The notes under the pieces: generated by a model
What the model was told of the DNA's origin: nothing
Seen by the model: the letters and a program-made list of their open reading frames with translations, nothing else
The model's database searches: none
Assembly (NCBI RefSeq): GCF_003319125.1
Contig: NZ_QOHG01000005.1
Location: 186,001-250,000 of the forward strand
DNA: 64,000 nt
Source of the DNA: Blastococcus sp. TF02A-26
Lineage (GTDB): Bacteria; Actinomycetota; Actinomycetes; Mycobacteriales; Geodermatophilaceae
Direction of reading: 5' to 3'
Shown here: piece after piece, positions 57,923-64,000 of the stretch
How the letters are laid out: every line of letters begins with the position of its first letter
Position numbering within the stretch: position 1 is the stretch's first letter
Made by a program: the position numbers and the translations under genes

Positions 57923-58801
57923 GTGTTCCGTAGATCTCGCCTGCTCGTCGCACTCGTCACCGCGTCGGGCGCACTTCTCCTCGCGCCCACCGCCGCGTCA
58001 GCCGACGAGCCCGACGTGCCCTCCGGTCCGCTCACCGAGTGCCTGACCGGGCTGACCGAGGGCGACCCCACCCAGTGCCTGCCCCCGGCGCCGCAGCAGC
58101 TGCCCACGCCGCCCGCACCGACGGCCGAGACCCCGGCCGCGGAGCAGCAGCAGCAGCAGACCGTCCCCGAGGAGGACGGGCCGACGGCCGACGCCGCGGA
58201 CGTGGTCCCCACCGACGAGCAGGGGCAGGAGACCCCCGATCCGGTCGCCGAGCTGTGCGCCGCGCTCGAGGACGGGATGGGCGAGCTGCCTGTCGAGCTG
58301 GCCCCGCTGACCGGCCCGCTCGCTGGTGTGGTCGCGACGCTCTGCGCCAACGCGGAAGAGGTCACGGAGGAGCTCGAGGCGCTGCTCGGGGAGCTGGAGA
58401 CCCTCGTCACGGATCTCCTCGCCGTGCTGACCGACCCCAAGGCGGGCTGCGAGACGCTGGTCGGCCTGATCGAGAAGGGCGGCGCCGCGCTCGGGCTGCC
58501 CGCCGAGGTGCTGACCGGCCTGATCGAGCAGTTCTGCTCCTTCATCCCGGGTGAGGAGCCGGCCCCGCAGCCCCAACCGCAGCCCCAGCCCCAGCCGGCC
58601 CAGCCGGTCGTGCACCCGCAGCCCCAGCAGCAGCACCAGCCGGCCGTCGTCCCGGTGGCGCACACCGGCGGGACCGGCGGTGGCCAGCTGGCCTACACCG
58701 GCACCGAGCCGGCGCCCTACCTCGCCGGTGGGCTCATCGCGCTCGGCCTGGGCACCGGCCTGACCCTCCTGGGTCGTCGCCGGGCGTCGTCCGACGCCTG
58801 A
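57923..58801 (+). CDS. Secreted LAxTG-anchored cell-wall protein (class E sortase substrate)
   Basis: 292-residue surface protein. Sec signal peptide at residues 1-27 (RRSRLLVALVTASGALLLAPTAASA). Mature part has Gln/Pro-rich low-complexity tracts (EQQQQQTVPEE; PQPQPQPQPQPAQP), and a helical central part of about 100 residues with four Cys that could form disulfides. The C-terminus is a sorting signal: LAYTG, hydrophobic span PYLAGGLIALGLGTGLTLLG, then RRRASSDA. LAxTG is preferred by sortase E of high-GC actinobacteria. No sortase gene lies nearby. GTG start; no known functional domain was recognised. Followed by a strong hairpin. Confidence 0.9.
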   Translation: MFRRSRLLVALVTASGALLLAPTAASADEPDVPSGPLTECLTGLTEGDPTQCLPPAPQQLPTPPAPTAETPAAEQQQQQTVPEEDGPTADAADVVPTDEQGQETPDPVAELCAALEDGMGELPVELAPLTGPLAGVVATLCANAEEVTEELEALLGELETLVTDLLAVLTDPKAGCETLVGLIEKGGAALGLPAEVLTGLIEQFCSFIPGEEPAPQPQPQPQPQPAQPVVHPQPQQQHQPAVVPVAHTGGTGGGQLAYTGTEPAPYLAGGLIALGLGTGLTLLGRRRASSDA

Positions 58802-59845: not shown

Positions 59846-61054
59846 GTGACCGGCACGCCCCCGCCCCTGGACCTGGCCGACCCCGCGGTGGTCGCCGACC
59901 CCTACCCCGCGTTCGCCGCCGCCCGGGCGCAGGCGCCGGTCCAGTGGCACGAGGGCCTGGGCCTGTGGCTGGCGTTCACCCACGCCGAGGCCGGCGCCGT
60001 CCTGCGCGACCGCCGGCTGGGCCGGATCTGGCGCGACCGGGAACCGGCCGAGCGGTTCGGGTCGTTCAACCTCATCCACCGCAACGCCATCCTGGAGATG
60101 GAGCCGCCGGACCACACCCGGCTGCGCCGGCTGATCAGCACCGCCTTCGCCCGCGGGCACGTCGAGCGGCTGCGACCCTGGGTGCAGGAGCTGGCCGGTC
60201 AGCTGGTCGACGGCCTGGTGGAGCGCTCCGCCGGCAGCCAGCCGGTCGACGTCCTCTCCGGCATGGCCGAGGAGCTGCCGGTCGCCGTCATCGCCGAGCT
60301 GCTCGGCGTCCCCGGCGCCGACCGGCCGCTGCTGCGGCCGTGGTCCAACGCGATCGTGAAGATGTACGAGTACGGCCGGACGACGGCGGTGGAGGACGCC
60401 GCCGAGCGGGCCGCCGCCGAGTTCGTCGCCTACCTGCGGGACCTCGCCGCCGAGCGCCGGCGGGCACCCGGCGAGGACCTGCTCTCGCACCTGGTGTCGG
60501 TGCGCGACTCCCACGGCGACCGGCTCACCGAGGACGAGCTGGTCACCACCTGCATCCTGCTGCTCAACGCCGGGCACGAGGCCACCGTCAACGTCTCCGG
60601 CAACGGCCTGCTGGCCCTGCTCCGGCACCCCGACGAGCTGGCCCGCCTGCGCGCGGACCCCGACCTGCTGCCGACGGCGGTCGAGGAGCTCATGCGCTAC
60701 GACTCGCCGCTCCAGCTGTTCGAGCGCACCGCGACCGAGGACGTCGAGATCGGCGGGGTGACCGTCGCCCGCGGGCAGAAGATCGCCGCGCTGCTGGGCA
60801 GCGCCAACCGCGACCCCGCCGTCTTCTCCGCGCCGGACACCCTCGACGTCGGCCGCACGCCCAACCCGCAGATCTCCTTCGGCGCCGGCGTCCACTTCTG
60901 CATCGGGGCGCCGCTGGCCCGCGTCGAGCTCCAGGCCACCTTCGGCGCGCTCCTGGCCCGGACCTCCCGGCTGGACCTCGGCGCGACGCCCCACCGCCGG
61001 CCGGAGTTCGTGATCCGCGGGCTGGCCGAGCTGCCCGTCGTCCTCACCCGGTGA
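59846..61054 (+). CDS. Cytochrome P450
   Basis: 402-residue class I bacterial P450 monooxygenase. I-helix oxygen-binding motif LLNAGHEATVN (about residue 240), K-helix ExxR in EELMRYDSP, and heme loop FGAGVHFCIGAPLAR with the axial Cys near residue 352. No membrane anchor; it needs a ferredoxin and reductase encoded elsewhere. It resembles the CYP107/CYP125-side actinobacterial P450s, but I cannot assign a family. GTG start preceded by a leaderless promoter. Possible roles are xenobiotic, terpene or fatty-acid hydroxylation. Confidence 0.96.
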   Translation: MTGTPPPLDLADPAVVADPYPAFAAARAQAPVQWHEGLGLWLAFTHAEAGAVLRDRRLGRIWRDREPAERFGSFNLIHRNAILEMEPPDHTRLRRLISTAFARGHVERLRPWVQELAGQLVDGLVERSAGSQPVDVLSGMAEELPVAVIAELLGVPGADRPLLRPWSNAIVKMYEYGRTTAVEDAAERAAAEFVAYLRDLAAERRRAPGEDLLSHLVSVRDSHGDRLTEDELVTTCILLLNAGHEATVNVSGNGLLALLRHPDELARLRADPDLLPTAVEELMRYDSPLQLFERTATEDVEIGGVTVARGQKIAALLGSANRDPAVFSAPDTLDVGRTPNPQISFGAGVHFCIGAPLARVELQATFGALLARTSRLDLGATPHRRPEFVIRGLAELPVVLTR

Positions 61055-61656: not shown

Positions 61657-62994
61657 GTGGAGCGGGAGCGGCGTCGGGACGCGGCCGACCTCGTGCGCGA
61701 CCACGGGCCCGGGCTGCTGCGCACCACCGTGCTGCTCACCGGCGACCGCGCGTCGGCGGAGGACCTGGTGCTCACCGCGGCCACCGGCGTCCGGCGGTCG
61801 ACGGACGACCCCGCTGCGGCTCTCCGGGCGCTGGTGATCCGGACCTTCCTCAGCCGGCGGCGGCTCCTCGACGGCGAGCAGGTGGTCGAGGGTGTCCGCC
61901 CCGACGCCGACCGCGACCCGGCGTACGCGCGAGCGGCCGAGCTGCGCGCAGCCCTGCTCCAGCTGGCGCCCCGCACACGCGCCGCCCTCGTGCTGCGCGT
62001 CGCGGAGGGCCTGGACGCCGAGCAGACCGCACGGCTGGTCCGGTCGGAGCCGGGCAGCATCGAGGCCGACGTCCACGACGCCGTGACCGCGCTGCGGCCC
62101 CTGCTGAGCCCCCGGGCCTCCCACCCGTCCGGTGCCGACGACACCGAGGAGCTGCGCGCCCGCCTGCACGCCCTCGCCGACGAGCTGACCTGGCTCGACC
62201 CGGCGGTGCCGGTCGAGGGCGTCGCCGCCCGGATCCGGCGCCGGCGGCGGACCCGCGTGGCGTCCGCGGGGGCCGTCGCAGCGGCCGCGGCGCTGCTGAT
62301 CGGCGTCCCCGCGGTCCTCGGGCCGGCGCCCGCCCGGGAGGGGACCGGCACGGAGCCGGCCACGGAGGCGCGGACCCCGGAGCAGGCCGCCGCGGCGGCC
62401 GCGGCGGTGCAGGCCCAGCTCGAGGACGCCGTCGCCAGGATCGGTGCGGCGCCGGTCCTGACCTCCCCGGCGGAGTGGGACCAGTGGCTGCCCCGCGGAC
62501 GGCCGCCCGAGGGGACGACGGGCCAGGAGGACGAGGGGACCTGTCCCCCGCTGTCCGACCGGCTGACCGCGGCCCTCGACGCACCGATGGGCTACTGGAC
62601 CGGCGCACTGCCGCGCGGGCCGGTCGGCTGCACCTGGGTGCCGTCCCCGGGGCCACTGTCGGCCGGCGGGCCCTACGACTACCCCTACGTGCTCAGCGTC
62701 GGCTTCGTGCACGACCGGGACGGGACGTCGGTCGAGACGCTCCGGAGCACCTTCGCTCCCGGGGGCCCCGGCTCCCGCACCCTGTGCCCGTCGGCGGACC
62801 TGCCCGGCGAGAGCGCGCTCATCGGCTGCCCCGACGAGGAGGGACGCACCGACGTCCGCCTCCTGCTGGCCGTCCGCGACGCGCGCGACGCCGGCGTCTG
62901 GGTGCTGTCGGCGAGGGTCCAGCCGCAGACCGGGCGGTCGCCGGCCGACGCCTTGGCCGTGCTGACCGAGGCGGTGTCCACGGTCTACGGCTGA
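61657..62994 (+). CDS. Fused degenerate SigE-like sigma domains plus membrane-anchored extracytoplasmic domain
   Basis: 445 residues in one frame. Residues about 10-150 match the next gene's SigE-family sigma factor: LLRTTVLLTGDRASAEDLV (sigma-2) and LAPRTRAALVLRVAEGLDAEQTARL (sigma-4). About seven residues are missing in the sigma-2 helix region, and a weak sigma-4 recognition helix reads RSEPGSIEADVHDAV. Residues about 165-225 match the protein encoded after that sigma gene: ARLHALADELTWLDPAVPVEGV, a basic stretch RRRRRTR and a membrane helix. The remaining 220 residues are extracytoplasmic with four Cys. It is thus a fusion of modules that are separate genes immediately downstream. GTG follows GGAGGGCGC. 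Likely a membrane-tethered pseudo-sigma regulator; inference. Confidence 0.85.
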   Translation: MERERRRDAADLVRDHGPGLLRTTVLLTGDRASAEDLVLTAATGVRRSTDDPAAALRALVIRTFLSRRRLLDGEQVVEGVRPDADRDPAYARAAELRAALLQLAPRTRAALVLRVAEGLDAEQTARLVRSEPGSIEADVHDAVTALRPLLSPRASHPSGADDTEELRARLHALADELTWLDPAVPVEGVAARIRRRRRTRVASAGAVAAAAALLIGVPAVLGPAPAREGTGTEPATEARTPEQAAAAAAAVQAQLEDAVARIGAAPVLTSPAEWDQWLPRGRPPEGTTGQEDEGTCPPLSDRLTAALDAPMGYWTGALPRGPVGCTWVPSPGPLSAGGPYDYPYVLSVGFVHDRDGTSVETLRSTFAPGGPGSRTLCPSADLPGESALIGCPDEEGRTDVRLLLAVRDARDAGVWVLSARVQPQTGRSPADALAVLTEAVSTVYG

Positions 62995-63114
62995 GCGGCT
63001 CACGATCGTCACCACCCCGGACCGGCCCGTTGCCGAACCGAGACCGAGCCGTGCTGGGGTGGATCACCCCTGCCGATGCGTCATCCCAGTGAGAGCACGG
63101 GAGACGGAGGGCGC

Positions 63115-63633
63115 GTGGCACGGGATCGGGACGACGGGTTCACCGACTTCGTCGTCGACTGCGGCCCCCGACTGCTGCGCACCGCCGTGCTGCTGACCGG
63201 CGACCGGCACTCCGGCGAGGACCTGGTGCAGACCGCGCTCGCGCGGGCCTACGGGAAGTGGTCGACCGTCCGCGCCGCGGACGAGCCGATCGCCTACGTG
63301 CGACGCGTCATGGTCAACGCCCACCTGAGCCGGCTGCGCCGGCTGACCAGCACCGAGCAGGTCGTCGAGGCGGTGCCCGACCGTGGCGACGGCGCCGATC
63401 TCCAGGCCGCGCACGCCCAGGCCGACGAGCTCCGGACGGCGCTGCTGCGGCTCTCGCCGCGGATGCGGACCGCCGTGGTGCTCCGGTACTTCGACGACCT
63501 GAGCGAGGAGGAGACCGCACGGCTCATGAACTGCTCCCGCAGCACCGTGAACAACCACGTCACCCGGGGGCTGGCCGCGCTGCGCGGTCTGCTCGCCCCG
63601 GTGCCCGAGCCCACGTCGAGGAGGTCCTCGTGA
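63115..63633 (+). CDS. SigE family ECF RNA polymerase sigma factor
   Basis: 172-residue group IV sigma factor. Sigma-2 about residues 10-75 (LLRTAVLLTGDRHSGEDLVQTALARAYGKW), sigma-4 about 105-160 (LSPRMRTAVVLRYFDDLSEEETARLMNCSRSTVNNHVTRGLAALR) with a complete helix-turn-helix. Directs RNA polymerase to stress or envelope-type promoters. Start GTG 63115 follows GGAGGGCGC; the 18 bp over the ribosome site and start are identical to those of the upstream fusion gene. The stop overlaps the GTG of the following membrane protein, its probable partner or anti-sigma. Confidence 0.94.
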   Translation: MARDRDDGFTDFVVDCGPRLLRTAVLLTGDRHSGEDLVQTALARAYGKWSTVRAADEPIAYVRRVMVNAHLSRLRRLTSTEQVVEAVPDRGDGADLQAAHAQADELRTALLRLSPRMRTAVVLRYFDDLSEEETARLMNCSRSTVNNHVTRGLAALRGLLAPVPEPTSRRSS

Positions 63634-64000
63634 CCGTGGAGCACGACCTCTCCGCCCGCCTGTCCGCCCTCGCCGACGACCTGACGTGGGCCGACCCCAC
63701 GGTCTCCCCCGAGGCCGTGATCACCCGGCACCGCCGGCAGCGCCGCGCCCGCGCGGGGCTGGTCGCCGCCGCGGCCGCCGTGGTGGCCGTCGTCGTCGCC
63801 GTGCCGACGGCGATCGGCTCGCTCTCCGCCGAGCCCGGCGAGGCCGCGGGTCCAGGCGGGACGACGGCGCCGGCCACCACGGACGCCGAGGCAGTCGCCA
63901 CGGAGGAGGCACGGGCGGCCGCCGCCGAGGCGTCCGCAGCGGCCGATGCGCGAGCCGAGGCCGAGGCCGCCGAGTTCGCAGCCTTCGGGGCCCAGGTCGG
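63630..64000 (+). CDS. Membrane-anchored probable sigma-factor partner (partial)
   Basis: The visible 123 codons start VTVEHDLSARLSALADDLTWADPTVSPEAVI, a short cytosolic region, then a basic stretch RHRRQRRARAG and a membrane helix of about 20 residues (LVAAAAAVVAVVVAVPTAIG), followed by an Ala/Glu-rich extracytoplasmic stalk. It continues beyond the window. GTG overlaps the sigma stop (GTGA) and has GAGGAGG upstream, so it is coupled to the sigma gene. The same cytosolic-TM module occurs inside the fusion protein upstream. No ZAS zinc motif is visible, so an anti-sigma role is inferred from context only. Confidence 0.85.
   Translation, partial: MTVEHDLSARLSALADDLTWADPTVSPEAVITRHRRQRRARAGLVAAAAAVVAVVVAVPTAIGSLSAEPGEAAGPGGTTAPATTDAEAVATEEARAAAAEASAAADARAEAEAAEFAAFGAQV

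Follow-up and report, generated by a model that had tools for sequence, protein, structure and literature searches.

Near the end of the window, by which we mean the whole 64,000-nt stretch of Blastococcus sp. TF02A-26 DNA analysed here, a single open reading frame joins a degenerate SigE-like sigma domain to a membrane protein, immediately upstream of an intact sigma gene and the gene for a separate membrane partner. The fused sigma has lost the positive charge of its recognition helix and its gene has lost the conserved motif that lies upstream of the intact sigma; the LADEL string of the cytosolic segment is retained, the fusion is conserved in relatives and its sigma half is under relaxed but real constraint. 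We tentatively read this gene as a sigma/anti-sigma fusion that has become a sigma mimic tethered to the membrane, where it would act in cis as the plug of the protein's own anti-sigma-like segment.

The gene order at the end of the window is P450-like gene, small membrane gene, fusion, sigma and membrane partner (Table 1). From the look of the sequences, we take the left neighbour to be a cytochrome P450-like gene and the ligase gene that flanks the locus in relatives to be acyl-CoA ligase-like. The sequence-only reading of this DNA had proposed a fusion of a sigma-like part and a membrane module beside the same modules as separate genes, and this description holds, both halves matching the downstream pair in one frame. 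A pairwise alignment of fusion residues 1-152 with P0002, the sigma encoded downstream, gave 47% identity (E = 2e-32), and residues ~164-445 matched the downstream membrane partner at 38-40%. The homology of the N-terminus to sigma factors is also apparent from Pfam, where region 4 scores above cutoff, and the common segments quoted earlier are present (LTGDRxSxEDLV, and RARLHALADELTWLDPAV vs SARLSALADDLTWADPTV). Moreover, the fusion gene and the intact sigma gene have the start context GAGACGGAGGGCGCGTG in common, which is what a duplication would predict. Near the junction the membrane half lacks a separate start, as fusion residues 143 to 184 contain no in-frame start codon, and a reading of the sequence revealed no cysteine in residues 1-222. 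Further upstream in the window, the protein encoded at 57923-58801 has an N-terminal hydrophobic stretch and Gln/Pro-rich parts; its C-terminal end consists of LAYTG followed by hydrophobic and arginine-rich stretches, which we take to resemble a sortase signal.

Table 1. Positions in the window of the fusion gene, its parts and the neighbouring features.
Feature	Position	Strand	Basis or remark
Cytochrome P450-like gene (presumed), left neighbour of the fusion locus	59846..61054	+	ORF
Fusion gene, 445 aa: degenerate SigE-like sigma, cytosolic segment, transmembrane (TM) segment and ectodomain	61657..62994	+	GTG start, single frame
Pseudo-sigma region 2 (aa 1-80), 6 residues deleted compared to the intact sigma	61657..61896	+	Alignments
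Pseudo-sigma region 4 (aa 93-152), positive charge lost in the recognition helix	61933..62112	+	Pfam Sigma70_r4_2, E = 3.3e-6; charge count
Cytosolic helix (aa 159-178) with RLHALADELTW stretch, common to the separate partner	62131..62190	+	Alignment; model
TM segment (about aa 200-222), preceded by a basic cluster	62254..62322	+	Hydropathy scan; model helix 186-214
Ectodomain (about aa 262-445), predicted alpha/beta	62440..62991	+	Model; weak structural matches only
Promoter-like conserved motif upstream of the intact sigma	63028..63057	+	Ends 57 nt before the GTG; leave-one-out score 25.2 bits
Intact SigE-family ECF sigma factor P0002, 172 aa	63115..63633	+	TIGR02983 164.1 bits, above cutoff; alternative in-frame start ATG at 63076
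Membrane partner of the intact sigma, 299 aa, running past the window end (L006:4631-5530)	63630..64000	+	GTG start, 4-bp overlap with the sigma stop

A TM protein is encoded directly downstream of all 58 separate sigmas examined, with a 4-bp overlap in 54 of these pairs. The cytosolic part of the 58 partners measures 39-59 aa (median 43 aa) and none of them carries an HxxxCxxC zinc motif. Many contain a helix of the type LxxRLxxLAD, and the TM segment is preceded by a basic cluster, while the ectodomains differ. A short cytosolic segment next to the TM segment and free of a zinc motif is the layout of CnrY-type anti-sigmas, and its occurrence, at ~40 aa, beside every one of the 58 separate sigmas makes it a candidate anti-sigma segment. 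A sequence search of solved structures with the membrane protein gave no convincing match (one row at E = 0.078), and a Pfam search with three separate partners returned no family for two of them and one chance-level row for the third. Some separate pairs (G034:C35, G012:C5 and G020:C12) share one reading frame, with a single TGA between sigma and partner, so that one base change could fuse them. As for the window's intact sigma, its residue 73 (63331-63333, alignment position 70) is Arg, the position being Trp in 97% of the 58 separate sigmas and also in the intact sigma of Blastococcus endophyticus.

The sequence-only reading had also raised the question of conservation in relatives. A search of 116 genomes, among them the window's own, found the whole fusion in three (G000, G054 and G005), and when each species was scanned through a single genome, fusion loci were identified in B. 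endophyticus, Geodermatophilus obscurus and G. saharensis. G054 and G005 were counted as the same as the G. obscurus and G. saharensis loci, which gives four fusions of this kind in total (type A), with the in-frame join open in three genomes besides the window's. Identity to the window fusion is 67% for B. endophyticus and 51% and 49% for the other two. At the level of the order (200 genomes), none of the matches listed from outside the family (Geodermatophilaceae) was uninterrupted through sigma, segment and TM. All four type A fusions sit between the P450-like gene and the acyl-CoA ligase-like gene, and among the 11 distinct loci compared from relatives, 10 have a P450 homologue with 82-91% identity no more than a few kb away, the exception being L041. 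The pair precedes the fusion in B. endophyticus, the fusion precedes the pair in the window genome, and the fusion stands alone in G. obscurus and G. saharensis. In G003 and G048, the interval from the P450 gene to the ligase gene holds the pair alone, and in G056 and G037 the membrane protein alone. In the stretches examined, the P450 gene was found without the ligase gene beside the pair of three further genomes (G046, G024 and G007), and neither gene was found beside the membrane protein of G062. The G. saharensis fusion appears to begin on the stop codon of the preceding gene.

A strong match to the ectodomain (E below 1e-90) was obtained in 12 of 112 family genomes: two with the fusion only, one with fusion and pair, five with the pair only and four with a membrane protein and no sigma found beside it, as judged over 14 kb (3.9 kb in G130). 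G143, a weak ectodomain locus whose N-terminus was not located, was left out of these counts. In the ectodomain tree, the four type A fusions form one clade (support 100/100), and they group together with the two co-resident split partners (99/98). The earlier proposal that a sigma/membrane-partner pair was duplicated and then fused, yielding a membrane-tethered pseudo-sigma, is supported by the grouping of both halves with the syntenic pair, in the ectodomain tree and, with the caveats given below, in the sigma tree.

When the window genome was compared to B. endophyticus, the sigma part showed 46 changes out of 142 positions in the fusion vs 14 out of 162 in the split sigma (p about 2e-7), and the ectodomain 93 out of 169 in the split partner vs 41 out of 177 in the fusion (p about 1e-9). 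A symmetric role swap, with the fusion keeping the sensor and the split pair keeping the sigma, was rejected by counts of outgroup-conserved ectodomain positions. Of 59 such positions, 50 are retained in the split partner of B. endophyticus, more than in any of the fusions (44-48), so drift is confined to the window's split partner and the swap is not symmetric. To judge by its sequence, the sensor part of this separate partner (63630 to beyond the window end, L006:4631-5527) is drifting: 36 out of the 59 conserved positions are left, and the cytosolic motif is kept.

The description of the sigma half as degenerate and SigE-like agrees with its profile scores. Against TIGR02983 (the SigE family, with a cutoff of 141.55 bits), which is the parent family of these proteins, the window fusion scores 61.2 bits, the B. 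endophyticus fusion 97.5 bits and the three fusions tested 61-98 bits, all below the cutoff, and the intact downstream sigma, a member of the family, reaches 164 bits. Region 4 alone passes the Pfam cutoff on the fusion sigma half. The functional roles of the DLVQ residues and of the recognition-helix residues belong to the general background on sigma factors. The Gln of the DLVQ stretch (region 2.2) is gone in all four type A fusions, and F9, Q36, Y43, Y58 and R61, conserved in 81-100% of the 58 separate sigmas, are kept in none of them. The charge of the recognition helix averages +2.97 in the 58 separate sigmas (1 to 4) and -1.25 in the four type A fusions (-3 to 1), a drop from about +3 to -1. 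The fusions thus lack the conserved region 2 and region 4 residues and the basic recognition helix that characterise the SigE family, whereas most hydrophobic core columns of the separate sigmas are retained in the four. The B. endophyticus fusion has a region 2 of full length and the best TIGR02983 score of the three fusions tested, and this copy looks like an intermediate. On these sequence features, the sigma in the fusion is most likely no longer a promoter reader.

A similar loss is seen upstream of the genes. A motif of ~30 bp, whose highest-weight letters are CGTTATCAAACCGATACCTAACGGTATGGG, is present upstream of 24 of the 25 syntenic sigmas (including the run-on in G063 described below), with leave-one-out scores of 15-45 bits, the matrix itself being derived from these 25 rows by leave-one-out weighting; 99% of the shuffles stayed below 3.9 bits and their maximum was 13.8. 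At the four type A fusions the motif is missing (scores from -3.5 to -12.3). Nine out of nine genomes picked for a strong motif contained a single occurrence, upstream of that sigma gene. In the window genome, the first 18 motif bases gave one exact match, and 12 further places at 3 mismatches compared to 8 for the reversed control. The motif looks like a dedicated autoregulatory promoter.

A second type of fused pseudo-sigma/TM protein (type B: L047, L048, L049, L088-L103 and L105), about 620 aa long, bears a large ectodomain unrelated to that of type A and gave a full or nearly full match in 15 genomes of one genus (g6) as well as in G010 and G054. The type B ectodomain shows homology to the G000:C22 separate partner (39%, E = 5.7e-21). 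Leaving aside type A and the run-on, the 19 remaining fused rows have a mean recognition-helix charge of 0 (-2 to 2), so positive charge in region 4.2 is lost here as well. Across the fused proteins, sigma-profile scores are graded from 188 down to 19 bits. In L107-L117, the TM and ectodomain are still joined to a strongly eroded remnant of a sigma (19-56 bits), and further eroded ones include L123, L125, L127, L132-L135 and L139. A recognisable region 4 is missing in several Geodermatophilus type B homologues, and some long fused proteins (e.g. L128, L130 and L137) gave no sigma-profile match. In G063:C55 (L046 / L022), the frame of an intact sigma stays open into that of its membrane partner, across a linker resembling a frame-shifted repeat of the sigma 3′ end; this run-on is possibly a fresh fusion.

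Of 163 profile hits, 104 remained once duplicates were removed; five unrelated or partial rows were dropped and rows below 70 bits were kept outside the sigma tree. In this 82-row tree, type A lies apart from type B. When six long rows were taken out, a quick tree joined type A and type B with a support of 88, while on the same reduced set the placement of type A with the syntenic sigmas, or of type B with the C22-like sigmas, was 26 log units better. With the full set, forcing all fusions into one clade was 18 log units worse, but this tree was not rejected (p-AU 0.23). Mainly because of the different ectodomains and synteny, we favour two origins, with type A and type B as independent fusions.

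The LADEL/LADDL string of the cytosolic segment occurs in all four type A fusions and in the seven split pairs with the same ectodomain, and in none of the four orthologues without a sigma found beside them (L040, L041, L043 and L069); one of these four, that of G062, has LVDEL. In these small numbers of related rows, the segment seems to go with a sigma domain, whether or not that domain is intact. Over the whole cytosolic segment omega is near 1 (1.10 and 0.88), and for the LADEL motif alone the codon-position signal is not significant (p = 0.33).

AlphaFold modelled the full-length fusion with a pLDDT of 80 and a pTM of 0.55. The input alignment of this model misplaced the N-termini of the separate partners and the type B cytosolic segments; the model of aa 1-200 (pLDDT 86.6, pTM 0.82) was built from a cleaner alignment. 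The shorter model predicts helices 2-28, 31-44 and 52-66 at good pLDDT, and its block of aa 161-180 has pLDDT values of 94 and 87. As one rigid body, it superimposes on SigW of SigW-RsiW (Z 14.4, rmsd 3.7, 140 aligned), RpoE of RpoE-NepR (Z 13.9), PhyR of PhyR-NepR (Z 12.9) and CnrH of CnrH-CnrY (Z 11.3). The fit to SigK of SigK-RskA is poorer (rmsd 9.7 Å), for RseA/MucA-type complexes the alignment is limited to sigma4, and RNAP-bound sigmas aligned over both domains give rmsd values of 21-28 Å. The fused sigma is therefore modelled in a closed state resembling that of anti-sigma-bound sigmas, a fold that is unspecific because the best structural row was SigG1 (Z 14.5) and SigJ also matched (Z 11.0), both solved without an anti-sigma according to their titles. 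A contact of helix 159-178 with the sigma domain is predicted from the pTM and confidence alone. For the ectodomain, weak matches over model residues 269-445 were obtained with two actinobacterial proteins (3lyd_B, Z 8.3; 7cu8_D, Z 8.1). Foldseek returned the rows 3jcu_P, 1jhs and 1eq6 at E 0.03-0.04, and these Mog1 and PsbP structures presumably match the ectodomain.

The explanation that would best account for these results starts from a SigE-family ECF sigma gene that shared an operon with the gene of its membrane partner; this operon would have been duplicated, one copy then fusing in frame. The ~40-aa cytosolic segment of the partner, devoid of a zinc motif, would be an anti-sigma segment. 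The fused sigma domain would have lost promoter reading and become a membrane-tethered sigma mimic, which may occupy its own anti-sigma-like segment in cis in a closed conformation, as with CnrY/NepR/RsiW-type anti-sigmas. A signal at the ectodomain would set whether the segment is plugged or free for an intact sigma, the target being the downstream sigma in the window genome and other SigE-type sigmas in Geodermatophilus. The data suggest that the sigma domain may now serve as a ligand, within one chain, for the anti-sigma-like segment, a part that PhyR plays in trans for NepR (PMC4598750). Binding of the pseudo-sigma to the partner segment is plausible, given that LADEL is kept and that the predicted fold is closed. 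Competition with, or control over, an adjacent intact sigma could hold for some of the genomes at most, since in G. obscurus and G. saharensis there is no adjacent pair, and a complete mimic would not always be needed because some Geodermatophilus type B homologues have no recognisable region 4.

It is also quite possible, as a second explanation, that the fusion is a membrane sensor or a structural protein and that its sigma half is a decaying passenger, which stays in frame and must fold. Decay would give relaxed omega values, and the NG86 values of two type A pairs (0.54 and 0.68) are relaxed; for the pair with 0.54 in the fusion, the intact sigma of the same two genomes gave 0.20, estimates that ignore GC bias and for which one of seven control pairs of separate sigmas gave 0.435. 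The long branches of the fused rows in the sigma tree, the graded erosion of the profile scores with loss of a recognisable region 4, and the persistence of membrane-protein orthologues where no sigma was found alongside are in agreement with this explanation as well. However, second-position changes in the sigma half of the window fusion are half as many as third-position changes (27 vs 54 of 152 codons, p = 3e-4; GC3 0.947), and nine type B pairs showed omega values of 0.25-0.57. Also, both sigma domains are predicted to be well folded, and LADEL is kept in the fusions and lost in the orthologues without a sigma. The codon comparisons indicate that the pseudo-sigma half is still under protein-level constraint, weaker than that on the intact sigma.

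Known fusions offer a third explanation, which we regard as improbable: regulated proteolysis would free the fused sigma, which would then transcribe, as considered for ECF52 and IutY. According to passages in two reports, ECF48, ECF52 and ECF53 carry sigma, cytosolic inhibitory part and TM in one chain, ECF52 with an additional extracytoplasmic domain, and release by regulated proteolysis has been proposed for ECF52 and shown for IutY (PMC8999054; PMC5826349). The order of sigma, anti-sigma-like part, TM and ectodomain in the window fusion is the same as in ECF48/52/53 (e.g. SCO4117, an ECF52) and in IutY of Pseudomonas putida (as in some ECF243), where a membrane anti-sigma is joined to the C-terminus of the sigma (PMC8999054). 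In the accounts given there, however, the anti-sigma domain of the ECF48/52/53 proteins is a zinc finger and their sigma is presumed to be active, whereas the window fusion has no Cys in its cytosolic part and has lost the recognition-helix charge and the upstream motif. Likewise, IutY is described as freed by Prc/RseP as an active sigma, whereas the sigma of the window fusion looks inactive. The loss of conserved region 2 residues, the six-residue deletion in region 2 and the lack of a conserved motif upstream of the fusions also argue against transcription by the fused sigma.

Still more improbable is the idea, also raised by the sequence-only reading, that the pseudo-sigma competes for core RNA polymerase, binding core and not promoters. 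Sigma regions 2.1/2.2 take part in clamp binding, according to a published account (PMC7406223), and parts of these regions are well kept (L17, L18, R19, E32, D33 and L34 in at least three of the four type A fusions). But the region 2.2 Gln is lost in all four, the model as a whole fits RNAP-bound sigma structures poorly, and the membrane tether would restrict access. Finally, although the 4-bp overlap of most separate pairs means that one indel could fuse such genes, a missed frameshift or stop left by sequencing or annotation is ruled out for practical purposes, since the in-frame join is open in three more genomes, four in all, whose fusions have diverged as far as described above.

Returning to the tethered sigma mimic that we tentatively favour, a known parallel would be PhyR, described as a sigma-like domain without sigma function that binds the anti-sigma NepR in trans (PMC4598750). 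Both have a sigma-like domain without normal sigma features, the model superimposes on PhyR as given above, and Pfam PhyR_sigma2 gave a weak hit on the B. endophyticus fusion (E = 0.0015, below cutoff). In contrast to PhyR, which contains a receiver domain and works in trans, the fusion has a sigma-like part that is membrane-tethered, joined to an anti-sigma-like segment and derived from SigE-family sigmas; no receiver domain was found in the fusion among Pfam hits up to E = 1. The short cytosolic segment resembles those of CnrY-type (class II) anti-sigmas and may likewise bind sigma; in CnrY, two helices bind sigma4 and sigma2, according to passages in the report (PMC7406223). Active sigma-anti-sigma fusions and sigma mimics are thus known already, but a fused degenerate sigma was not found in the accessible text of the open-licence papers searched, nor was the combination of the two.

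Sigma/anti-sigma fusions have been described as a means to make a sigma releasable. The natural fusions described here appear to have the opposite outcome, in which the sigma ceases to be a sigma and the anti-sigma-like segment and the sensor stay. A single bacterial family displays a series of separate pair, intact run-on, the less degenerate B. endophyticus fusion, degenerate fusion and near-erased remnant, so that the path from a transcription factor to a regulatory mimic, the question of origin that lies behind PhyR, is testable within one family. A wider claim, which we consider doubtful, is that Geodermatophilaceae possess a family of tethered mimics in which ECF pairs were fused, probably at least twice, DNA reading was lost, the plug was kept and other sigmas are regulated by partner switching. 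If true, a transcription switch would have turned into a membrane sensor that is complete in itself and acts on other sigmas in this way.
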